A stretch of 54,898 nt of DNA, taken from Blastocatellia bacterium. Its GTDB lineage: Bacteria; Acidobacteriota; Blastocatellia; HR10; J050. Position numbers and translations under genes: made by a program. Shown one piece after another: positions 3,517-15,716 of this stretch. The notes under the pieces are model-generated. The model saw only the letters and a list, made by a program, of their open reading frames with translations. It ran no database searches and was not told the DNA's origin. Position 1 is the stretch's first letter, and the number at the start of each line of letters is the position of its first letter. The DNA lies in assembly GCA_025054955.1 (NCBI GenBank), contig JANWZE010000047.1, positions 1 to 54,898 of the forward strand, in the 5' to 3' direction.

Positions 3517-4992
3517 ATGAGATTTCCTGTGATCAAAGCTGTCTCCTACGCGTTGGCTCATACGCCGAATCTGGTGCGCTATGGCTCGAAGCCGGAGCGT
3601 GAATTGCGGAAAGAGCCGAGCATGATTGAACAGATAGATCGGCATCTTCGCACGTATGAAGAAGCGGTTGCCTATCCGCCCAATCAAGTCTTCATCGGCA
3701 ATATGCCGCCAGAGGCCCTCTGGGATACGGCGCGACCATGGTGGAAGCAAACAGGCGCCGCTCTGCGATTCGGGCCTTATGGTGAGATCATGCCTGAAGA
3801 CGAGCTCCTGGGTTTGCTTCGTCTGGCTGACGAGTTCGATCTGATTTGGCTGGAGCAGTCGTTTGTCGAGCAGGTTGCTGAAAAGTTGGCCGGCCACCCG
3901 TTGTTTCACCCGGATGAGGTCAAGCGGCTGGGAGCTGGTCATGCGCCGGAGGCGATTCAAGCTCGTGTGACGCAGGAAGGGGCTTTGCCGTTTTATCTGG
4001 ATGGGCAGATTGTGGGTTGTATTGCGCCGGGCCATGATGAAGACCCGTTTTTAACACCGACGATTTTGCTGGAGAATCTCGCCTGCAAAGCAACAGGGGT
4101 GCTAGCCATGCGCTGGTTGCTGCAAGCGTATCACTGTGATCAGATCAACCCGCTCACCATCGAGTATGTGATCAATACAGGCGAGGAAGCAGTTGGCGAC
4201 CGCTATCAACGCGGCGCCGGCAATCTGGCCAAAGCGATGGCTGAGTTAGCCGGTTGCCGCAACAGCACGGGCAGCGATCTCAAGGCGTTTTGCTGTGGCC
4301 CGATTCACGGCGTAATCGTGGCCGGCGGATTAGTTCAATCGGGGATTTTTCAGCAGGTGTTAGTTGTTGGCGGCGGTGCGTTGGGCAAACTTGGGATGAA
4401 GTTTCGCGGCCACCTTGCCCATGACATGCCGATTTTGGAAGACGTTCTGGGTAGTTTCGCGATTTTGATCGGGCCGGATGACGGTTTCAATCCCGTCATC
4501 CGCTTGGACGCAATTGGCAAGCATGATATTCGGTATGGGGGCTCGGCACAGGCTATTGCTCAGGCGCTGGTTGTCGAGCCGTTGAGCAAGCTGGGGCGAA
4601 CGATCCCTGAGGTCGAGCGGTATGCTGTCGAGCTGCACAATCCCGAAGTGACGGAACCCGCCGGCAGCGGGAATGTGCCGCAACACAATTACCGCGTCAT
4701 TGCCGGTTTGGCTGCGTTGCGCAAGGAGCTGCCGCGAGACGCTGTCAACAGTTTTGAGCGGACGCATGGGCTGCCGGGCTTTTCGCCGACGCAAGGACAT
4801 GTGCCATCGGCTGTGCCTTATCTAGGGCATGCGCGCGATGCGATGCTCAGTGGCTCGTTGCGCTCGGCGATGTTTATCGGCAAAGGCAGTTTGTTTCTCG
4901 GCAAGATGACCAATCTGGCCGATGGCATGTCGTTCATTCTGGAGGCGCAGGCGCCAGATACATCACACAGGCGGAGTGATCACGATGATTGA
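3517..4992 (+). CDS. grdC: Glycine/sarcosine/betaine reductase component C, beta subunit (GrdC-like)
   Basis: A 491-residue GrdC homologue. In clostridial glycine reductase, protein C takes the Se-carboxymethyl group from GrdA, forms an acetyl thioester on itself and passes it on to phosphate with GrdD. The N terminus MRFPVIKAVSYALAHTPNL matches the family, and the protein has the FabH/thiolase-like fold segments. Cys259 and Cys260, in DLKAFCCGPIHG, align with the conserved acyl-accepting cysteine region. I chose ATG 3517 because homology begins there; a longer open frame reaches back to 3424 but its extra 31 residues look non-family. No ribosome-binding site is evident, and GTG 3511 is another option. 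The 3' end overlaps the thioredoxin gene by 8 bp. No grdD partner follows, which is unusual. Confidence 0.9.
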   Translation: MRFPVIKAVSYALAHTPNLVRYGSKPERELRKEPSMIEQIDRHLRTYEEAVAYPPNQVFIGNMPPEALWDTARPWWKQTGAALRFGPYGEIMPEDELLGLLRLADEFDLIWLEQSFVEQVAEKLAGHPLFHPDEVKRLGAGHAPEAIQARVTQEGALPFYLDGQIVGCIAPGHDEDPFLTPTILLENLACKATGVLAMRWLLQAYHCDQINPLTIEYVINTGEEAVGDRYQRGAGNLAKAMAELAGCRNSTGSDLKAFCCGPIHGVIVAGGLVQSGIFQQVLVVGGGALGKLGMKFRGHLAHDMPILEDVLGSFAILIGPDDGFNPVIRLDAIGKHDIRYGGSAQAIAQALVVEPLSKLGRTIPEVERYAVELHNPEVTEPAGSGNVPQHNYRVIAGLAALRKELPRDAVNSFERTHGLPGFSPTQGHVPSAVPYLGHARDAMLSGSLRSAMFIGKGSLFLGKMTNLADGMSFILEAQAPDTSHRRSDHDD

Positions 4993-5314
4993 TGTGACCA
5001 GAGAGACATTTGAGCAAGAAGTCAAACAGGCATCCAAGCCGGTCTTGGTTGACTTTTGGGGTCCCCGATGTGGTCCCTGTTTAGCCTTGATGCCACTGGT
5101 TGAAGAGCTGTCTACTCGTTTCTCGGAGCAATTGAAAGTGGTGAAAGTGAACGCTCAAGAGAACCGCAAGCTGTGTGTCGAGTTGAAAGTGTTGTCGCTC
5201 CCCACATTTCTGTTTTTCAATCGTGGTCAGGAGCAAGCCCGGCTCAGCGGCGATATTCACGCTGATGCGCTGCAACCGTGGGTCGAGGCGCAACTGGGCA
5301 ATCTCATGGAGTGA
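4985..5314 (+). CDS. Thioredoxin of the glycine reductase type
   Basis: A 109-residue thioredoxin. The active site is CGPC (Cys29 and Cys32) in the context DFWGPRCGPC, where the usual Trp-Cys is replaced by a longer Trp-Gly-Pro-Arg-Cys. That variant is typical of thioredoxins encoded beside glycine reductase, which re-reduce the selenoprotein after each turnover. The cis-proline segment SLPTFLFF is present. The start at 4985 overlaps the end of grdC by 8 bp, so translation is likely coupled; a longer in-frame extension to 4922 lies wholly inside grdC and has no support. No thioredoxin reductase gene is nearby, whereas clostridial operons usually include one. Confidence 0.93.
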   Translation: MIDVTRETFEQEVKQASKPVLVDFWGPRCGPCLALMPLVEELSTRFSEQLKVVKVNAQENRKLCVELKVLSLPTFLFFNRGQEQARLSGDIHADALQPWVEAQLGNLME

Positions 5315-5335
5315 ATAACAGGAGGTCAAGGCACT

Positions 5336-5800
5336 ATGCAACTGGCTGGAAAGAAAGTGATCGTGCTCGGTGAACGCGACGGCGTGCAAGGCACGGCCTT
5401 GAGTGAATGCGTTAAGGCGGCTGGCGGCGAAGTCGTGCTGGCGATCAACCAGTGCTTCGTCTGAACGGCCGCCGGCGCTATGGACCTTGAGGATCAAGGT
5501 GCGATCAAAGCTAAAATTGAAGAGATTGGCAGCGAAGATGTGGTAGTCATTCTCGGCTCGCCCGATCCTGATGCCGCCGAGATGTATGCCGAGACGGTGA
5601 CGGTGGGTGATCCGACGTATGCTGGTCCGTTGGCCGGCGTTGCGTTGAGACTGCCCGTTTATTGCATCTTCGAGCCGGAGATCAAACAGCAGATTCCGCC
5701 AGACGTCTACAGCGAGCAGGTGGAGTTGATGGAAATGGTCTTGCCCAGTGAAGCCATCTCGGCGCGGGTCAAGGCCGTGCGCGAGCGAGCGCAACTCTGA
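5336..5800 (+). CDS. grdA: Glycine/sarcosine/betaine reductase selenoprotein A (GrdA), selenocysteine at TGA 5462-5464
   Basis: A 154-residue protein if the in-frame TGA at 5462-5464 (codon 43) is read as selenocysteine. The surrounding peptide is CFVUTAAGAMDLE, the GrdA signature, with Cys40 and Sec43 forming the redox pair. GrdA carries the Se-carboxymethyl intermediate between protein B and protein C and is reduced by thioredoxin. ATG 5336 is preceded by GGAGGT at 5321-5326, a strong ribosome-binding site 9 nt away. The total length is close to the roughly 158 residues of clostridial GrdA. Conventional gene callers would stop at codon 42 or report only the downstream part. The ACCTTGA-GGA-TCAAGGT hairpin at 5484-5500 is a plausible SECIS element. 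Gaps to neighbours are 21 bp and 15 bp. Confidence 0.96.
5462..5500 (+). promoter_or_regulatory. Selenocysteine TGA codon with putative bSECIS hairpin (grdA)
   Basis: The TGA at 5462-5464 is followed by a perfect 7-bp stem, 5484-5490 pairing with 5494-5500, closing a GGA loop at 5491-5493. The first loop G lies 27 nt after the TGA, inside the 16-37 nt window known for bacterial SECIS elements. A loop starting with GG or GU is what SelB recognises in characterised cases. It matches in form the hairpin after the grdB TGA. Confidence 0.75.
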
Positions 5801-5815
5801 TGGTTGGAGGTGAGC

Positions 5816-7144
5816 ATGTCCAAGCAAATTCGCGTTGTGCATTACCTGAATCAATTTTTCGGCGGTATCGGCGGTGAAGAGAAAGCCGATACACCGTTAC
5901 AAGTGCGCGATGGGCCGGTCGGTCCCGGACTTGGGTTGCAGAAAGCGCTGGGCGACCGCGGCCAGGTCGTTGCCACGTTCATTTGTGGCGATAATTTTTT
6001 CAGCAGTCACACGGATGCTGTGCTTGCAGAGCTTGAGCAAGTTGTCCCAGCTTATCAGCCGGATGTGCTGGTGGCCGGGCCAGCGTTCAATGCCGGGCGA
6101 TACGGATTTGCCTGCGGGCAGGTCGGCAAAGCACTGAGCGAACGATTGAACATTCGCGCAGTGACGGCGATGTATCCGGAGAATCCGGCCGTTGAGAATC
6201 ATCGCAGAGTGAGCGGCTTGTGGATTCTGCCGACGAGCGACCGCGCTGGCGACATGCCAAAGGTCTTACCCAAGCTCGCCGATTGGGCTGTTCGGCTAGG
6301 TCGCGGTGAACCGATTGGCCCGGCCAAGCTCGAAGGCTATATCCCCACAGGCCAGCGACGATTGCAGATGACCGATACGCCGGGCTACGAGCGAGCGTTT
6401 CGCATGCTCATGGCCAAGCTCAATGGAGAACCATTCGAGACGGAAATTCCTATCGAGCAATTTGAAATGGTGCCGCCGGCGCCGCCGCTGAAAAACGTGA
6501 AGACAGCGCGATTGGCTCTGATCACCACCTCCGGTCTGGTGCCCAGGGGCAATCCGGACAAATTCAGAATGTTCAACGCGACTCAGTGGCGCCAGTATCG
6601 CTTGCCCGATGCGCCGACGCTTCGCGGCCAGGATTGGGAGGTCATTCATGGAGGGTTCAATACAGCCTATGCTCAGCAGAACCCGCATCTGGTTCTTCCG
6701 CTGGATGTGTTACGCGAGAAAGCAGGAGAGGAGTTTGGTCGCTTGCATGATGAGTTCTATTCGATCACAGGCGTGGGAACTAGTTTGAAAGTGGCTCGGC
6801 AAGCTGGCCAACAGATAGCCGCCTCGCTCCGCGAAGCCGGTGTTGACGCGGCGTTGTTGGTAGCGACCTGAGGGACCTGCACGCGCTGCGGCGCAGCGCT
6901 CTCCAAAGAATTGGACAGAATTGGTATGCCAGTGGTCATCATCTCAGCGATGGATCAACTTGCCCAGCAAGTCGGGGCTGCTCGCGTGGTTGTGGGACGA
7001 AAGATTCCGCATCCGTGCGGCGATCCGAACCTGCCGCCTCCATTCGATATTCAAGTTCGACGCGAGATCATCCAGACGGCGCTTCGGGCGCTGGAGACGC
7101 CGGTCACCGCGCCAACGATTTTCCGGCCTGAGCATGCCATCTGA
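5816..7144 (+). CDS. grdB: Glycine/sarcosine/betaine reductase component B selenoprotein (GrdB/GrdF/GrdH-like), selenocysteine at TGA 6869-6871
   Basis: A 442-residue protein when the in-frame TGA at 6869-6871 (codon 352) is read as selenocysteine. The context VATUGTCTRCGAAL matches the UGTCTRCG centre of GrdB, GrdF and GrdH, and the N terminus has the family segment VRDGPVGPGLGLQKAL. In known systems the Sec attacks the substrate held as a Schiff base on the pyruvoyl partner GrdE, GrdG or GrdI, releasing ammonia or an amine and passing the carboxymethyl group to GrdA. No such partner is encoded in the window, so which amine, or other alpha-substituted acid, is cleaved is unknown. ATG 5816 has GGAGG at 5806-5810. 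The 91 residues after the TGA keep family homology, so this is not a truncated gene. Confidence 0.95.
6869..6899 (+). promoter_or_regulatory. Selenocysteine TGA codon with putative bSECIS hairpin (grdB)
   Basis: After the TGA at 6869-6871, bases 6883-6889 (GCGCTGC) pair perfectly with 6893-6899 (GCAGCGC) around a GGC loop at 6890-6892. The first loop G is 19 nt beyond the TGA. Stem length (7 bp), loop size (3 nt) and the GG loop start all repeat the grdA arrangement, although the stem sequences differ. Confidence 0.75.
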
Positions 7145-7213: not shown

Positions 7214-8023
7214 ATGAGCAAGACACCAGTGTTTACCAACAGACGCATGTATCGGTTGTTTGGCGAGGACGGCCGCAGCTTGGTGGTCGCTATGGATCAT
7301 GGCGGTGGATTGAATGTCTATCCATCGCTGTCTGACCCTGGCCAGGTCATCGCCGCCGTGGTGGCGGGCGGCGCTGATGCGGTGTTAACAACGCCGGGGA
7401 TACTCAAGCATTTCTATCACCAGTTGAAATCGGTTGGCGTCATTCTGCGTGTGGATGGCGGCAGTTCTGAGCTCGAAGGCAGCAGTGGAGACTACCGGCT
7501 GCTCTACTCAGTCGAAGATGCGCTGCGGTTGGGCGCCGATGCGGTGGCCTGCATGGGATTTCCTGGAAGCCCATTGGAAGCGCAAACATTGGGAAATATC
7601 GCAACGCTGGCGGCGCAGTGCCAGAGATGGGGCATGCCGTTGATGCCGGAGATGATCCCCGGTGGTTTCACCAACTGGAGCTTACGCACGGTGGAAGCCA
7701 CACGCTTGGCTGTCAGGATTGGGATTGAGCTGGGCGCTGATTTCATCAAGACGGAGTTTGTCGGCTCCGTTGATGAGTTTCGTTCGGTGGTTGCGCATAG
7801 TTATCGTCCTGTGTTGGTGCTGGGTGGCAGCCGCAAGGATGATGATCGCGCGTTGCTGAGCATGGTCAAGCAGGCGATGGACGCAGGCGCCAGCGGCGTG
7901 GTGATCGGGCGAAACGTGTGGGGTCATCCGCGACCGCAAGCGATGGTGACAGCTTTGCATCGAATTATTCACGGTCAGGCTTCCGTCCAGCAGGCGCTTG
8001 AAGTGTTGGAGTCAAACAGATGA
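7214..8023 (+). CDS. Class I aldolase of the DhnA/LsrF/FbaB family
   Basis: A 269-residue TIM-barrel aldolase of the DhnA family, which includes archaeal-type fructose-bisphosphate aldolase FbaB and the LsrF thiolase. Visible hallmarks are AMDHGG near residue 27, the GADAVLTTPG segment, and Lys179 in ADFIKTEF, expected to form the Schiff base. The C-terminal phosphate-binding region GASGVVIGRNVWGHP is intact, so the substrate is probably a sugar phosphate. Its direct coupling to an FGGY kinase (4-bp overlap) suggests that the kinase makes the phosphorylated substrate and this enzyme splits it. ATG 7214 follows a GGAGA at a suitable distance; a longer frame from 7190 is less likely. The gap from grdB is 69 bp, the second widest within the operon. 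Confidence 0.82.
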   Translation: MSKTPVFTNRRMYRLFGEDGRSLVVAMDHGGGLNVYPSLSDPGQVIAAVVAGGADAVLTTPGILKHFYHQLKSVGVILRVDGGSSELEGSSGDYRLLYSVEDALRLGADAVACMGFPGSPLEAQTLGNIATLAAQCQRWGMPLMPEMIPGGFTNWSLRTVEATRLAVRIGIELGADFIKTEFVGSVDEFRSVVAHSYRPVLVLGGSRKDDDRALLSMVKQAMDAGASGVVIGRNVWGHPRPQAMVTALHRIIHGQASVQQALEVLESNR

Positions 8024-9492
8024 ACCATCGGCACCTGTTGTTGGCGATTGATCTGGGCACGTCGGGCGTGAAAGCGGGCGTATTCGCCAGCGATGGCTCA
8101 CTGGTAGCGCAATCGGGCGTCGGGTACGAGACGCTGACGCCACATCCGGGCTGGGCTGAGCAGGAGCCGCAGGCATGGTGGGACGCCACGTGTCGCGCGG
8201 TCAGTCAATGCGTTGCTCAGTGCGATGCCACGCGGATCGAAGGCATTGGCCTGACGGGGTTGTCGCCTTCACTGGTCTGTGTGGATGAGCGGGGCGAGCC
8301 GGTGCGCCCGGCGCTTATATGGTCGGACCGACGAGTCGCACAGGAGATCAGCGAGCTGACGGAGGCGCTCGGCGCGCACTTATCATTCACACCGCTGCCG
8401 CGCCTGCTGTGGCTCAAGCGACACGAACCAAATTCCTATGAACGGACGCGCTGGGTCTTCGACTCATTCGATTATCTGAGTTTCAAAATGACCGGGCAGG
8501 CGGCTAGCTTTTGCCCCGTCGGGGATCAACTGGCCTGGTCGCCATCTGATGCGCTCAGCGCCGGTCTTGCGTTAGATAAATTTCCGTCTCGCGTCTGTAA
8601 GCTCGGAGAGCATGTCGGCGGCGTGCTGCCGGCAGTGGCCGCTCAGGTAGGGCTGCCCAGCGGATTGCCGGTGATCGCCGGAACGATTGATTCATTCGCC
8701 GCCTGGATTGGCACGGCCACGACCCGTCCGGGTGTCGTCTGCAACACGGTCGGCACATCTGATGGCGTGGCGCTCGTCTGGGACCAAGCGCTGGTTGATC
8801 CGCAAAACCGACTGCAATGCATGCCGCATCTGACCGGCCGCCATTGGATCGTCGGCGGCGCAATGTCAACCGGCGGAATTTTGTTGGAGTGGTTTGTTCG
8901 CCATTTCTACAATCACGAGCCGGACTCATTTGGCACGGCCATTCGTGAAGCCGAGGACGTATCGGTCGGCGCTGACGGCTTGCTCGCTTTGCCATATCTG
9001 GTGGGTGAACGCTCGCCTATCTTCGACCATCATGCTCGCGCGGTCTTCTTCGGCATCAGTGAGACACATGGGCGGGCGCATTTTGCTCGTGCTGTGTTGG
9101 AATCGGTCGCGTTGGCCGTGCGTGATGTGTGCCACGTGATTGAAGAAGTCGGCGGCGCTATTGACGAAATCCGCGTCGCCGGTGGCGGCGCCAAAAGCGA
9201 CTTGTGGAGTCAAATCAAGGCCGACGTGGTTGGCGTTCCTGTGCTCGTGCCGCAGATTGGCGATTCCGGCTTGCTGGGCGCCGCGATCATCGCCGGCTGG
9301 GGCGTTGGCCGCTTTACCGATTTGTCTGAAGCGGCTGAGGCAATGGTGAAGTTTCGCGCCGTCATGGAGCCACGTGTGTCTCACCATGAGATGTATACCA
9401 AGCTGTTTGAACTGTACCGCAGGTTGTATCAGCACTTGAAAGACGACTTTGTCACCGTGAGTCAACTGCTCAGACCAGAGGAGCGTCATTGA
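8020..9492 (+). CDS. FGGY-family carbohydrate kinase (xylulokinase/LsrK-like)
   Basis: A 490-residue two-domain sugar kinase. The N-terminal phosphate-binding loop is LLAIDLGTSGVKAGVF. GWAEQEPQAWW is the typical FGGY segment that follows. The catalytic aspartate is in GTIDSFAAWIG, followed by VGTSDGVAL and the adenosine-binding VAGGGAKSDLWSQIKAD near residue 390. Members phosphorylate xylulose, ribulose, erythritol, glycerol or autoinducer-2; the sugar used here cannot be told from motifs. The start ATG overlaps the aldolase stop by 4 bp (ATGA), and its own stop overlaps the aldehyde dehydrogenase start by 1 bp, so the three genes are translationally coupled and probably act in succession. 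Confidence 0.88.
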   Translation: MNHRHLLLAIDLGTSGVKAGVFASDGSLVAQSGVGYETLTPHPGWAEQEPQAWWDATCRAVSQCVAQCDATRIEGIGLTGLSPSLVCVDERGEPVRPALIWSDRRVAQEISELTEALGAHLSFTPLPRLLWLKRHEPNSYERTRWVFDSFDYLSFKMTGQAASFCPVGDQLAWSPSDALSAGLALDKFPSRVCKLGEHVGGVLPAVAAQVGLPSGLPVIAGTIDSFAAWIGTATTRPGVVCNTVGTSDGVALVWDQALVDPQNRLQCMPHLTGRHWIVGGAMSTGGILLEWFVRHFYNHEPDSFGTAIREAEDVSVGADGLLALPYLVGERSPIFDHHARAVFFGISETHGRAHFARAVLESVALAVRDVCHVIEEVGGAIDEIRVAGGGAKSDLWSQIKADVVGVPVLVPQIGDSGLLGAAIIAGWGVGRFTDLSEAAEAMVKFRAVMEPRVSHHEMYTKLFELYRRLYQHLKDDFVTVSQLLRPEERH

Positions 9493-10937
9493 TGGATGTG
9501 AAACGATACGATCATTTCATCAACGGAGCTTGGGTTGCGCCATCTTCAGGCGATTACTTTGCCGACATTGATCCATCCACAGGACAGGTGTGCGCGCACG
9601 TGGCGCGCGGCAGCGCCGACGATGTTGATCGGGCCGTTGAAGCTGCGCGCCGCGCGTTCCATGTGTGGCGCAAGGTTGAGCCGAGTGACCGTGGCCGCCT
9701 CCTGCATCGCGTGGCCGCTCGCCTGCGCAGCGAAGCGGATGAGCTGGCGTATCTGGAATGTATTGACACGGGATTTCCGCTGCGCGATTGTCAGATGATC
9801 GTTCACCATGTCGCGGCGCGTCGGTTCGAGTATTACGGCGGCTTAGCGGACAAACTTGGCGGAGAGACCATCCCTGTGCCTGGCAATCATCTGGATTACA
9901 CGTTACGCGAGCCGCTCGGCGTCGTTGGCATCATCATCCCGTGGAACAGCCCGTTGTGGGCAGGCAGCGCGTGTGTGGCGCCGGCCTTGGCCGCCGGCAA
10001 CACGATTGTGTTGAAACCGGCGGAAGAAGCGCAATTGAGCATGCTGCGACTGGCCGAGATACTGAAGCAGGAGGGCGCCCCCGACGGCGTGTTCAACGTG
10101 GTGACCGGATTAGGACCTGAAGCTGGCGCGGCGTTGGCTGGTCATCCCGGGCTTGACGCGATCTCGTTTACTGGCTCGATTGAAACAGGCCGCGAGGTGA
10201 TGAAACAGGCCGCGCAGCATGTCATCCCTGTCAGTTTGGAGCTGGGCGGTAAATCAGCCAACATTGTTTTTGCTGATGCCAACCTGGAGACGGCGCTGAT
10301 GTATGCCCTCATAGCGATTTTCACAGCGTCAGGCCAAGTCTGCACGGCCGGCTCACGCTTGTTGTTGCAGCGAGCGATCCATGATCAGTTCATGTCAAGG
10401 CTGATCGAGCGCACCGGTCAGCTTCGTGTGGGACGTGGATTGGATAATCCCGATATGGGGCCGGTCATTTCTGAACGCCAACTCAATCGCGTGTTGGGGT
10501 ATATTGAAGTTGGCGTGGCAGAAGGCGCGGCCGTGGCCATCGGCGGCCAACGATTGACCGATGAGGCGCTGGCCGATGGTTACTTCCTTGCGCCGACTAT
10601 TTTCGACGGCGTTACCCATCAGATGCGCATCGCTCAGGAAGAAATTTTCGGACCTGTCCTCTCTGTGCTGGTGTTTGACGATGCCGATGAAGCCTTGGCC
10701 ATCGCTAACGGCACATCGTATGGGCTGGCCGCCGCCGTGTGGACCCGCGACCTGAAAACCGCTCATTACATGGCCGCCCACCTGCAAGCCGGCAGCATCT
10801 ACGTCAACCGGTATTTCACCAGCGGCATCGAGGCGCCCACAGGCGGATACAAACGCAGCGGGTTTGGTCGCATTGACGGCGTTGAAGTCATGCGGCACTA
10901 CACGCAATTGAAAAACGTCATCGTCAATTTAGATTGA
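9492..10937 (+). CDS. NAD(P)-dependent aldehyde dehydrogenase
   Basis: A 481-residue member of the aldehyde dehydrogenase superfamily, which oxidises an aldehyde to the acid. The cofactor region contains PWNSPLW and FTGSIETGREV. Glu250 in LELGGKSAN and Cys284 in GQVCTAGSR are the general base and nucleophile. The C terminus PTGGYKRSGFGR is typical of ALDHs acting on small or betaine-type aldehydes. It would suit oxidation of an aldehyde released by the adjacent aldolase, for example glycolaldehyde or lactaldehyde, which is an inference. Start ATG 9492 overlaps the kinase TGA (TGATG). A TTG at 9489 is in frame but less likely. Confidence 0.93.
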   Translation: MDVKRYDHFINGAWVAPSSGDYFADIDPSTGQVCAHVARGSADDVDRAVEAARRAFHVWRKVEPSDRGRLLHRVAARLRSEADELAYLECIDTGFPLRDCQMIVHHVAARRFEYYGGLADKLGGETIPVPGNHLDYTLREPLGVVGIIIPWNSPLWAGSACVAPALAAGNTIVLKPAEEAQLSMLRLAEILKQEGAPDGVFNVVTGLGPEAGAALAGHPGLDAISFTGSIETGREVMKQAAQHVIPVSLELGGKSANIVFADANLETALMYALIAIFTASGQVCTAGSRLLLQRAIHDQFMSRLIERTGQLRVGRGLDNPDMGPVISERQLNRVLGYIEVGVAEGAAVAIGGQRLTDEALADGYFLAPTIFDGVTHQMRIAQEEIFGPVLSVLVFDDADEALAIANGTSYGLAAAVWTRDLKTAHYMAAHLQAGSIYVNRYFTSGIEAPTGGYKRSGFGRIDGVEVMRHYTQLKNVIVNLD

Positions 10938-11951: not shown

Positions 11952-12035
11952 GAACGGACGGCGAGGATGAAAAGATGAACTGCTGATCCGCCGCTCTGCC
12001 AGGCAGCGCAGATGAACGGACGGCGAGGATGAAAA
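11952..12035 (+). repeat. 22-bp perfect direct repeat spanning the AMP-ligase start
   Basis: GAACGGACGGCGAGGATGAA and its next two bases occur at 11952-11973 and again at 12014-12035, 62 bp apart. The second copy carries the ribosome-binding site and first ATG of the AMP-ligase gene. The first copy would give only a three-codon frame (ATG AAC TGC TGA). It looks like a duplicated translation start. Confidence 0.9.
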
Positions 12036-12037
12036 AG

Positions 12038-13579
12038 ATGAGCACAGTGAACCAGTCGGAAACGATTCGCGATTTGTTGGAGCGCGGCCAGCCGGCGAAG
12101 GTCGCCCTAGTCGTTGCCGGCGCTGGTGTCTCGATCACCTATGACCAGTTGCGCCGGCAGGTAGATGAGCTGAGCGCAATGTTCAATCGTCTGGGCCTTG
12201 GCCGTGATGATCGCATCGCCATGGCGCTGCCCAACGGATTGGAGGCGCTTATTGCTTTTCTGGCCGCAGCCCATGCAGCCACAGCCGCGCCGCTCAATCC
12301 TGCCTATAAGCGCGATGAGTTCGCGTTCTATCTTCAAGACACGCGGGCCAAGGCGCTGATTGTGCAGCCGCAGGGCGCTGATGAGGCGCTGGCCGCCGCC
12401 GATGAAGGCATCATCATTCTGCGTGCTCAGGTGGGCACTGAAGGGCGCCTCCAGGTCGTTTCATCGGGACGAATCGGAGTAGAACGAGAGCCGGCGCAAC
12501 CGCATCCTGAAGAGACAGCGCTCGTGCTGCATACCAGCGGGACAACCAGCCGGCCCAAGTGCGTGCCGCTGTCGCATACGAACTTGATTGCGTCGGCGCG
12601 ACAGATTGCACAGACTTACCAATTGTCGTCTGAGGATGTCTCCTTCTGTGTGATGCCGCTTTATCACGTGCACGGCCTGGTCGGTTCAACGCTCGCTGCG
12701 CTCTGGGCAGGGGGCACGGTGGTGATTGTGCCGCGATTTAATGCTTTGTCATTTTGGTCAACCGTTCGGCAGTATGGTGTGACGTGGTTCTCTGCTGTGC
12801 CGACCATTCATCAATTGCTACTATCGCGCGTCAAGCCAGGGACGCGGCCCGCCGGCGCCGAACAGTTGCGCTTCATTCGTTCATCCAGCGCGCCGTTACC
12901 GCCGGCGATGATGGCGCAGATGGAAGAGAGCTTCGGTGTGCCTGTGGTGGAGGCCTATGGGATGACCGAAGCGGCTCATCAGATGACCTCCAATCCGCTG
13001 CCGCCGGGCCGCCGCAAGCCTGGTTCCGTAGGGCCTGGAACAGGCGTCAGCATTGCTATTCTGGACGATCAAGGACATCATCTGCCGCTGGGGACCACAG
13101 GCGCTGTGGCCGTCAAAGGGCCAAATGTCTTCCGCGGCTATGAAAATAATCCAGAGGCAAATGCCGAATCATTCACCGACGGTTGGTTTCGCACAGGCGA
13201 TGAAGGTTGGTTGGACAGCGACGGGTATCTGACGTTAGTTGGGCGCACCAAAGAAATGATCAACCGTGGCGGAGAAAAGATTTCGCCCCGCGAGATTGAT
13301 GAAGTGCTCCTGATGCATCCGGCGGTCGCCGAGGCGGTGACGTTCGCCGTGCCGGATCAGGTCTACGGCGAGGAAGTGGCTGCCGCCGTCGTGCTCAAAG
13401 CGTCAGCGACGCCAGCCCAGTTGCTGGCGCATTGCCGGTCGGTGCTGGCCGATTTCAAATGTCCGAAAGTGATCCATCTGGTTGATGCCATTCCGCGCAC
13501 AGCCGCTACCGGCAAGGTGCAGCGGCGCGTGGTTGCCGCCGAGATTGCTCGACGGATGCAACAACAAGGAGGCTCATGA
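12038..13579 (+). CDS. AMP-dependent acyl-CoA synthetase, oxalyl-CoA synthetase (AAE3)-like
   Basis: A 513-residue ANL-family ligase that activates a carboxylic acid with ATP and then CoA. The P-loop is LVLHTSGTTSRPKC, and the adenylate-binding A5 region reads EAYGMTEAAHQMTSNPLPPG. The HQMTSNPLP extension is characteristic of the plant and fungal AAE3/Pcs60 oxalate-CoA ligase group. The hinge is GRTKEMINRGGEKISP and the C-terminal catalytic lysine is in TAATGKVQRR. Oxalate or a similar short diacid is therefore a reasonable substrate, which would fit the OFA-type carrier upstream. ATG 12038 lies 9 nt after GAGG (12025-12028); ATG 12029 is in frame but abuts the GAGG. It ends with a 4-bp overlap with the next gene. 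Confidence 0.88.
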   Translation: MSTVNQSETIRDLLERGQPAKVALVVAGAGVSITYDQLRRQVDELSAMFNRLGLGRDDRIAMALPNGLEALIAFLAAAHAATAAPLNPAYKRDEFAFYLQDTRAKALIVQPQGADEALAAADEGIIILRAQVGTEGRLQVVSSGRIGVEREPAQPHPEETALVLHTSGTTSRPKCVPLSHTNLIASARQIAQTYQLSSEDVSFCVMPLYHVHGLVGSTLAALWAGGTVVIVPRFNALSFWSTVRQYGVTWFSAVPTIHQLLLSRVKPGTRPAGAEQLRFIRSSSAPLPPAMMAQMEESFGVPVVEAYGMTEAAHQMTSNPLPPGRRKPGSVGPGTGVSIAILDDQGHHLPLGTTGAVAVKGPNVFRGYENNPEANAESFTDGWFRTGDEGWLDSDGYLTLVGRTKEMINRGGEKISPREIDEVLLMHPAVAEAVTFAVPDQVYGEEVAAAVVLKASATPAQLLAHCRSVLADFKCPKVIHLVDAIPRTAATGKVQRRVVAAEIARRMQQQGGS

Positions 13580-14559
13580 AATTCGCTGTTGTCGGCGCTG
13601 GCGCCATTGGCGCATTTGTTGGCGCAATGTTGTCTCGGTCTGGTGAGGAAGTGACGCTGATTGCGCGTGGCGCGCATCTGCGCGCGATGCAGGCGCATGG
13701 TGTGCGTGTGCGCGGCTCGTTAGGCGAGTTTCAGGCCCATCCGCAGGCGACCGATGATCCGGCAGCCGTTGGTCCGGTGGACGTGGTCTTGTTGACGTTG
13801 AAAGCGCCCAGCTTGACTGAGGTGGCGCCTCGGCTGCACCCGCTGTTGCAGTCGCACACCAGCGTTGTGACCATGCAGAACGGGATTCCATGGTGGTACT
13901 TCTACCGTCATGGCGGGCCGCTAGACGGGCTGGTGCTGCAAAGCGTTGATCCGGGCGGCGTGATCAGCCAGCATCTAGATGTCGAACGCATCATTGGCGC
14001 TGTCGTCTATTGTTCGACGATCCTTGTTGAACCGGGCGTCATCGAGCACGTGGAAGGGACGCGCTTCTCCATCGGCGAGCTGGATGGCACACGCAGCGAG
14101 CGGTGTCAACGGATTGCCGAGGCGTTTCATCGCGCTGGATTGCGCTGCCCAATCCGCAGCGATATTCGCCGCGAAATTTGGGTCAAGCTGCTGGGCAACC
14201 TTGTCTTCAATCCGATAAGCGCGTTGACGCGGGCGACGTTGGTCGAGATTGCCCAATTTCCCGAAACGCGCTCATTGGCCATCCAGATGATGCGAGAAGT
14301 TGAACAAGTGACTGAGCGGCTGGGCCTAGATTTGGGCATCTCCATTGAACAGCGACTGGCGGGCGCTGAGAAAGTCGGGTTTCATAAAACCTCCATGCTT
14401 CAGGACGTGGAAGCCGGACGACCCCTGGAGCTGGAAGCGATCGTTGGCGCTGTGGTTGAATTGGCAGGCAAACTGGGCGTGACCATGCCAGCGACACAGG
14501 CTGTGTATGCTTGCGCCAAACTCCTTTCAGCGATGATAGAAAAAGGCAAAAAACTATGA
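13576..14559 (+). CDS. 2-dehydropantoate 2-reductase (PanE/ApbA) family ketoacid reductase
   Basis: A 327-residue 6-phosphogluconate-dehydrogenase-like reductase. The N-terminal nucleotide-binding motif is [15 protein letters not shown], and the family segments VTMQNGI and [10 protein letters not shown], with its conserved Lys and Asn, are present. The C-terminal [17 protein letters not shown] carries the family's conserved Ser/Asp/Glu cluster. True PanE reduces ketopantoate for pantothenate synthesis; a homologue inside a catabolic operon more likely reduces another 2-keto acid with NAD(P)H, which is an inference. Its ends overlap both neighbours by 4 bp (ATGA), so it is translationally coupled to the AMP ligase and the aminotransferase. 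Confidence 0.87.
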
Positions 14560-15716
14560 CGATCAATCCAACGCCACATCGGTTATTGCTTGGGCCGGGA
14601 CCAAGCCCCGTTGAGCAGCGTGTGCTAGACGCGCTGGCTCAGCCATTGCTCGGACATTTGGACCCGGCCTTCCTGAGCATCATGGACGAGATTCAAGAGT
14701 TGTTGCGGTATGTCTTCGAAACGGGCAACCGATTGACGATCCCGATTTCGGGCACAGGCAGCGCCGGCATGGAGGCCGCGTTGGTCAACCTGCTGGAGCC
14801 CGGCGATACGGCCATTGTGTGTATCCACGGCGTATTTGGTGAACGCATGTTTGATATTGTCGGTCGCGCCGGCGCCCGACCTGTGGCGATTCGCGCCGAG
14901 TGGGGCGAACCGATTGATGTCAACCAAGTCGAAGAGGTCCTCAAGCAAACGTCAGCTCGATTGGTCGCGATTGTTCATGCTGAGACGTCCACCGGCGTGC
15001 GACAATGTTTGGACGGATTAGCTGAACTGGCTCACCGTCATGGCGCGTTGCTCGTGGTTGACGCAGTGACATCGCTTGGAGGCCTGCCCGTCGGTGTTGA
15101 CGCGCAGCAAATTGATGTGTGTTATTCGGGCACGCAAAAGTGTTTGAGCTGCCCGCCCGGCTTGGCGCCGATTACATTTTCCGAGCGCGCGCGAGAACGC
15201 ATTCGGTCGCGTCAACACAAGGTTCAGAGTTGGTATCTGGACATGACGATGGTGGAACGGTATTGGGGAGCTGAGCGAACCTATCATCACACAGCTCCGA
15301 TTTCCATGAACTATGCGCTGCGGGAGGCGCTACGCGTGGTGCGCGAAGAGGGATTACAAGCGCGATGGCGACGTCACGAGTTAAACCATCGCGCGTTTGT
15401 CGCCGGCATTGAGGCGATGGGCTTGCAGATGCTCGTTGCTGAGCAACATCGCCTGTGGAGTTTGAATACTGTGCGCGTGCCTGATGGTGTCGAGGATGAG
15501 CTGGTGCGGTCGCGATTATTGCAGCACCACAACATTGAAATTGGCGGCGGACTAGGCCCGCTTAAGGGTCGTATCTGGCGGTTTGGGTTGATGGGCGCCG
15601 GCAGCACGCGGGCGAATGTATTGCGCGCGCTGGATGCGCTTCATGAGTCGCTTCAGGCCGTTGGGTATGATTGTCCCTCCGGCGTGGCGGCAGCCGAGCG
15701 CATTTATCAGGAATGA
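14556..15716 (+). CDS. Class V aminotransferase (alanine-glyoxylate/serine-glyoxylate type)
   Basis: A 386-residue PLP enzyme of the alanine-glyoxylate/serine-pyruvate aminotransferase group. It starts with [18 protein letters not shown], has the [12 protein letters not shown] cofactor-phosphate loop, [10 protein letters not shown] with the pyridine-nitrogen aspartate, and Lys195 in [13 protein letters not shown] as the Schiff-base lysine. Family members transfer an amino group to glyoxylate, giving glycine. That would be a striking partner for a glycine-reductase-type module four to ten genes upstream, although the link is inferred. ATG 14556 overlaps the previous stop; a longer frame from 14511 lies inside the preceding gene. 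This is the last gene of the operon; the next 353 bp hold no gene. Confidence 0.92.

Follow-up and report, generated by a model that had tools for sequence, protein, structure and literature searches.

GrdA is tied to acetyl-phosphate-forming anaerobic amino-acid fermentation. In the chemistry described for the Grd systems, component B takes the substrate, the selenocysteine (Sec) of GrdA becomes a carboxymethyl-selenoether, and this is followed by reduction with thioredoxin; in the established system GrdC/GrdD then release acetyl phosphate (PMC13188914, PMC10838667). In C. difficile, the GrdE peptide of aa 242–266 bears the pyruvoyl-forming Cys at its start, and the role of the pyruvoyl group is debated (PMC9908766). 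GrdI of the betaine reductase GrdH/GrdI is reported not to be a processed proprotein, and FarE of the fluoroacetate reductase FarB/FarE from Cloacibacillus porcorum, a component B thought to feed shared GrdA/C, is also without pyruvoyl cysteines (PMC10838667). A survey of 2006 counted GrdA among the few selenoproteins with no known Cys form and listed Sec-GrdA in Deltaproteobacteria, Spirochaetes and Symbiobacterium (PMC1794560), and 142 organisms with Sec-GrdA were counted in 2016 (PMC5029168). A literature search made without most subscription papers turned up no description of Grd enzymes from Acidobacteriota.

The window analysed here is a contig of 54,898 nt (C47) from the draft genome of a Blastocatellia bacterium (4.69 Mb in 152 contigs, 99.5% complete). 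With a probability of roughly 0.9, it encodes a genuine Sec-GrdA in an acidobacterium of the class Blastocatellia, which forms part of a variant Grd system with two B components. The genes lie in the order grdC, thioredoxin, grdA and grdB1, and the features of this region are as follows.

3517–4992, + strand: grdC, component C subunit beta, KAS III/FabH-like, with Cys in FCCGP (NF040746)
4985–5314, + strand: Grd-associated thioredoxin, WGPRCGPC (Pfam Thioredoxin, 6.5e-27)
5320–5326, + strand: Shine-Dalgarno sequence AGGAGGT of grdA (read from the sequence)
5336–5800, + strand: grdA, selenoprotein A, 154 codons (Pfam GRDA, 1.5e-58; NF040748, 209 bits)
5462–5464, + strand: in-frame TGA, selenocysteine codon 43 of grdA, in CxxU (same column in homologues)
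5484–5500, + strand: short hairpin ACCUUGA-GGA-UCAAGGU, possible SECIS (from folding; apical loop about 26 nt past the TGA)
5816–7144, + strand: grdB1, component B selenoprotein, 442 codons, stop TGA at 7142–7144 (Pfam GRDB; TIGR01918)
6869–6871, + strand: second in-frame TGA, selenocysteine codon 352 of grdB1, in UGTCTRC (UxxCxxC)
7214–8023, + strand: DeoC/DhnA-type class I aldolase, MJ0400/LsrF-like (Pfam DeoC, 1.1e-37; 63% identical in the island of the sister genome G001)
8020–9492, + strand: FGGY carbohydrate kinase of the island (58% identical in G001)
9492–10937, + strand: aldehyde dehydrogenase of the island (71% identical in G001)

The grdA frame starts at ATG 5336, behind a strong Shine-Dalgarno sequence, and stops at TGA 5798–5800. 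The first-pass annotation had placed a selenocysteine TGA at codon 43 within CFVUTAAGAMDLE, with 111 more family-like codons leading to a normal end, and both statements are exact: the context of the codon reads CFV-U-TAAGAMDLE, which supplies the CxxU motif (CFVU) with a TGA-encoded Sec, and 111 codons separate it from the end of the gene. The Pfam GRDA match runs straight through the TGA and covers model positions 1–147 of 147 (E=1.5e-58), and with 209 bits NCBIfam NF040748 clears its cut-off of 130, indicating full-length membership of the family. Judged by these scores, the match is far beyond chance. Together with the conservation of the TGA and the decoding machinery described below, a Sec at position 43 is nearly certain. 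With standard decoding, the only open reading frame listed here has 106 aa and starts at 5480, so that ordinary gene calling would shorten grdA, much as the annotation had expected. Since the terminator and codon 43 are both TGA, this triplet serves as Sec and as stop inside one gene. The terminator is in frame with the grdB1 start at 5816, and no other stop lies between them (window 5798–5820). The AlphaFold model of GrdA is fair (pLDDT 76.6) and gave no significant Foldseek match, and no solved structures matching GrdA, GrdB or GrdE by sequence were found. A candidate from the GrdA scan (L015, a Bradyrhizobium match) proved to be a short-chain dehydrogenase and was rejected.

The partners of GrdA are readily recognized. 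GrdC scores 641 bits with NF040746 (cut-off 450) and is 69–70% identical to the proteins of the two relatives that carry grdA, G001 and G002; its AlphaFold model is poor (pLDDT 40). The thioredoxin gene, whose product is the presumed electron donor, occupies the same place in both relatives, and a Synergistales cluster also contains one. GrdB1 matches Pfam GRDB (3e-124) and TIGR01918 (437 bits against a cut-off of 65), and its in-frame TGA is conserved in the grdB1 of G001. A third in-frame TGA is found in grdB2, at L016:13673–13675 on contig C1 of this genome. The two GrdB proteins carry the UxxCxxC motif as UGTCTRC and UATCSRC, respectively. Two component-B sets (GrdB1/E1 and GrdB2/E2) accompany one GrdA, one thioredoxin and one GrdC. 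The system comprises three selenoprotein genes, grdA, grdB1 and grdB2, each of which is cut off by standard gene calling.

Our comparison reveals that the acidobacterial system shares with the clostridial glycine reductase (C. sticklandii, C. difficile, C. litorale grdAB) the CxxU GrdA, the UxxCxxC GrdB, thioredoxin, GrdC and the grdA–grdB adjacency with two in-frame TGA codons. Unlike its clostridial counterpart, it is without GrdD, its GrdE is without the pyruvoyl Cys, it has two B sets, and its genes sit inside an island of amidohydrolase, kinase and aldolase genes.

This island is best seen in G001, where it forms one run of about 27.6 kb. It opens with a protein having a weak 3-hydroxyanthranilate-dioxygenase-like end, a 2Fe-2S ferredoxin, a 272-aa protein without a Pfam match and a DMT transporter, followed by an M20 hydrolase, a PF04199 cyclase/hydrolase, an MFS transporter, a TRZ/ATZ-type amidohydrolase, a zinc alcohol dehydrogenase and a VOC protein. 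The core then runs grdC, thioredoxin, grdA, grdB1, grdE1, grdB2 and grdE2, and the island closes with a TonB-dependent-receptor-like protein, an aldolase, an alcohol dehydrogenase, a DMT transporter, an FGGY kinase and an aldehyde dehydrogenase. In the genome of the window the same genes are divided between two contigs with complementary halves: C1 (L016) carries the first part of the island together with grdE1, an allophanate-hydrolase C-terminal-domain protein, grdB2 (with its TGA) and grdE2, and the window carries grdC, the thioredoxin gene, grdA, grdB1, the aldolase, the FGGY kinase and the aldehyde dehydrogenase. A search for sequence shared by the C1 end and the first positions of the window found no overlap. 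The window opens inside a tRNA-Lys gene (positions 1–60, Rfam tRNA, 5' end cut off), and the end of C1 resembles a dispersed repeat that is also present at the end of contig C94.

The 272-aa protein (L016 2385–3203) ranks high in conservation among the island proteins, with 86% identity to its counterparts in G001 and G002; it has no Pfam or NCBIfam match, and its two ExxxH/ExxH-like motifs (EEFKH and EETCH) are suggestive of a diiron protein. The allophanate-hydrolase C-terminal-domain protein (AH_C, 1.6e-40) stands alone at L016 12205–12630, between grdE1 and grdB2, and none was seen in the G001 island. Downstream of the island, window 12029–15716 encodes an acyl-CoA ligase, a 2-dehydropantoate 2-reductase-like protein and a PhnW/BhcA-type aminotransferase, which are unmatched in the G001 stretch compared. 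No radical-SAM gene was recognized in the island.

Two standard parts of glycine reductase are missing. The GrdD model found only PlsX-like matches of 21–30 bits, below cut-off, in the three grdA-bearing genomes of the family (94–99.5% complete); as a control it gave 559 bits in a Synergistales genome, and below-cut-off matches occurred in 7 of 14 control genomes. The match in the genome of the window is plsX, located in the usual plsX–fabH locus. All three genomes are draft assemblies, so the absence of GrdD is strong, not absolute. The pyruvoyl Cys of the GrdE motif NCVSAC is missing from all four acidobacterial GrdE proteins, which have VV, NN, AV and NY in place of NC, and the second cysteine of the motif is replaced as well. 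By comparison, the Cys is kept in 46 of 51 Synergistota GrdE. In our reading, the published Cys242 would correspond to the N–C junction of NCVSAC. A placement of the processing Cys at the downstream MNC was rejected, because the alignment of Synergistales GrdE and the published Cys242 both point to NCVSAC; under either placement the Cys is absent from the acidobacterial proteins. Maximum-likelihood analysis groups the acidobacterial GrdE in a clade by themselves on a long stem (support 100/100, length 1.41), separate from the Synergistota types including the Cys-less ones, with an exact position that is unsure owing to the long branches. The split between GrdE1 and GrdE2 predates the divergence of the two genera in which the island occurs.

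None of the substrate-specific NCBIfam models (glycine, sarcosine, betaine, fluoroacetate, proline) scores above its cut-off for GrdB1, GrdB2, GrdE1 or GrdE2. The glycine-specific TIGR01917 gives 407 and 463 bits for the two GrdB (cut-off 602), the sarcosine models NF040794 (GrdF) and NF040793 (GrdG) give 454 and 504 bits for GrdB (cut-off 800) and 243 and 311 bits for GrdE (cut-off 780), and the fluoroacetate FarE model NF053623 gives 120 and 126 bits for GrdE (cut-off 675). Sarcosine GrdF/GrdG are thus the best-scoring subfamilies, all well under cut-off. The Cys-less GrdE resembles the betaine GrdI, which is reported to be unprocessed at the cysteines (PMC10838667), and the fluoroacetate FarE, yet the acidobacterial GrdE falls in a tree clade apart from the sarcosine and betaine reductases, and GrdB keeps the CxxC that is missing from FarB.

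These comparisons bear on what the system reduces. A betaine or N-methylglycine (sarcosine) reductase is suggested by the best equivalog-type matches, GrdF for GrdB and GrdG for GrdE, and by the unprocessed state of betaine GrdI (PMC10838667). We nevertheless consider it unlikely, as the scores lie far under the cut-offs, the GrdE clade is deep and its own, GrdD is absent, and no betaine transporter or methyltransferase was recognized in the island. An ordinary Stickland-type glycine reductase that forms acetyl phosphate, with a diverged or housekeeping PlsX-like protein acting as GrdD, would fit the above-cut-off scores of GrdA, GrdB (in the general family model) and GrdC and the adjacent thioredoxin gene. 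It is still less probable: the GrdD model reaches at most 31 bits in the three genomes, where the only candidate in the genome of the window is the plsX of the plsX–fabH locus, every GrdE is without the pyruvoyl cysteines found in glycine-specific GrdE (PMC9908766), and GrdB stands at 407 bits against the TIGR01917 cut-off of 602. In principle, the housekeeping PlsX could replace GrdD. Taken as a whole, the system departs from glycine reductase in the strict sense in GrdD, in the pyruvoyl Cys and in its subfamily scores.

All parts for the first Grd steps are present. In the mechanism that we propose, the two substrate-specific B components, B1/E1 and B2/E2, would cleave the C–X bond of small alpha-substituted carboxylates, and Sec43 of GrdA would take the carboxyalkyl group as a selenoether, to be reduced by thioredoxin together with Cys40, the CxxU partner in GrdA. 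In Grd chemistry, the reduction by thioredoxin ends with an acyl group held as a thioester on component C, and KAS III enzymes can exchange such groups with CoA. The acyl group would be handed to GrdC, a KAS III-like protein, at its active-site Cys and might leave it to CoA or another acceptor, not as acetyl phosphate. Given a KAS III-like GrdC and no GrdD, such an acceptor is the likeliest destination that we can name, a proposal with a nearly even chance of being right. The loss of the GrdE cysteine, common to betaine GrdI and fluoroacetate FarE, favours substrates that form no Schiff base, and we lean, about as hesitantly, towards betaine-like or non-amine substrates, as for GrdI and FarE, over free glycine; with the pyruvoyl role debated, this loss alone does not exclude amine substrates. 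A more novel possibility, which we rate as less likely than not, is a Grd system of new specificity: two B components free of pyruvoyl groups would receive their substrates from the amidohydrolases and possibly oxygen-dependent enzymes of the island, and GrdC would pass the acyl group to CoA or another acceptor. If this is true, the Grd pathway would serve carbon assimilation and not Stickland ATP gain. As this GrdA works alongside neither an acetyl-phosphate subunit nor pyruvoyl cysteines, Grd chemistry as a general reduction of alpha-substituted carboxylates, and not only as an ATP-yielding Stickland reaction, becomes testable here.

The first-pass annotation had further proposed that a selenoprotein GrdA in a non-clostridial, probably acidobacterial, genome would widen the known range of glycine-reductase chemistry. 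Its assignment of the host is borne out, since the nearest named GrdA records come from metagenome-assembled genomes of an 'Acidobacteria bacterium' (86% identity) and a 'Blastocatellia bacterium' (84%), followed by a Synergistales assembly at 51%. The wider range stands in part. The acidobacterial host supports it, but Sec-GrdA outside Clostridia is long known, and a strictly defined glycine-reductase chemistry is not established because GrdD is absent and the GrdE-type subunits are without pyruvoyl cysteines; the acidobacterial Grd system is a variant without two standard parts. Among 98 close relatives, GrdA is confined to a single family, of which three genomes carry it; in a sample of 396 Acidobacteriota, two of these three among them, GrdA was recovered from those two alone. 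The simplest explanation of this distribution is that the family gained GrdA by horizontal transfer. The absence of GrdA from 95 of 98 relatives could also point to a contig of an anaerobe, for instance Clostridium or Synergistota, binned into an acidobacterial genome. This is very improbable, because the island, or the part of it within contig reach, recurs in three genomes of one family and two genera, the best non-acidobacterial GrdA match is only about 51% identical, C1 and C47 carry complementary island halves, the remainder of the window consists of ordinary chromosomal genes as read from its open reading frames, and the grd region, with a G+C content of 0.57, matches the remainder of the contig (0.56) and other contigs (0.56–0.57).

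The TGA of grdA is retained in all three genomes, and neither of the alternatives that would have spoken against selenocysteine in close relatives, a Cys codon or a frameshift, is present in G001 or G002. Synonymous sites of grdA have diverged widely from both relatives (pS 0.62–0.71, i.e. 1.3–2.3 substitutions per site). By comparison, the 111 codons 3' of the TGA show a pN of 0.11–0.12 and a dN/dS of about 0.07–0.10, and their changes fall mostly at third positions (first/second/third: 13/8/58 and 15/10/51 for the two relatives). By this substitution pattern, the codons after the TGA are under strong purifying selection. A sequencing error or a decayed pseudogene with a relic downstream half, conceivable in a draft assembly and with a single base separating TGA from the Cys codons TGC and TGT, is scarcely credible given the same TGA in both genomes from another genus, whose proteins are about 85% identical, the low dN/dS of the downstream codons, the frame open to the end of the family and the in-frame TGAs also seen in grdB1, grdB2 and selD. 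The TGA also occupies the same column in 24 of 24 Synergistota grdA genes read; the search pattern demanded a stop there, so this count shows that the TGA form is usual, not that other forms are absent.

The RNA 3' of the grdA TGA folds no better than shuffled sequences (z about 0), and no SECIS consensus structure emerged across homologues, Synergistota grdA included. The predicted fold of the 45-nt stretch behind the TGA also failed to tell true Sec codons apart.

Consistent with a functional Sec codon, the decoding machinery on which the first-pass reading depended is present in the 99.5% complete genome: a tRNA-Sec with a UCA anticodon (68.7 bits, above the gathering threshold), SelA (486 bits), SelB (354 bits, cut-off 242) and SelD (380 bits). 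SelB exceeds its cut-off in 84 of 98 relatives, indicating that Sec coding is general in the class Blastocatellia. The selD gene (L037, contig C44) has its own in-frame TGA and is itself a selenoprotein gene, as it is in five of six other Blastocatellia genomes searched.
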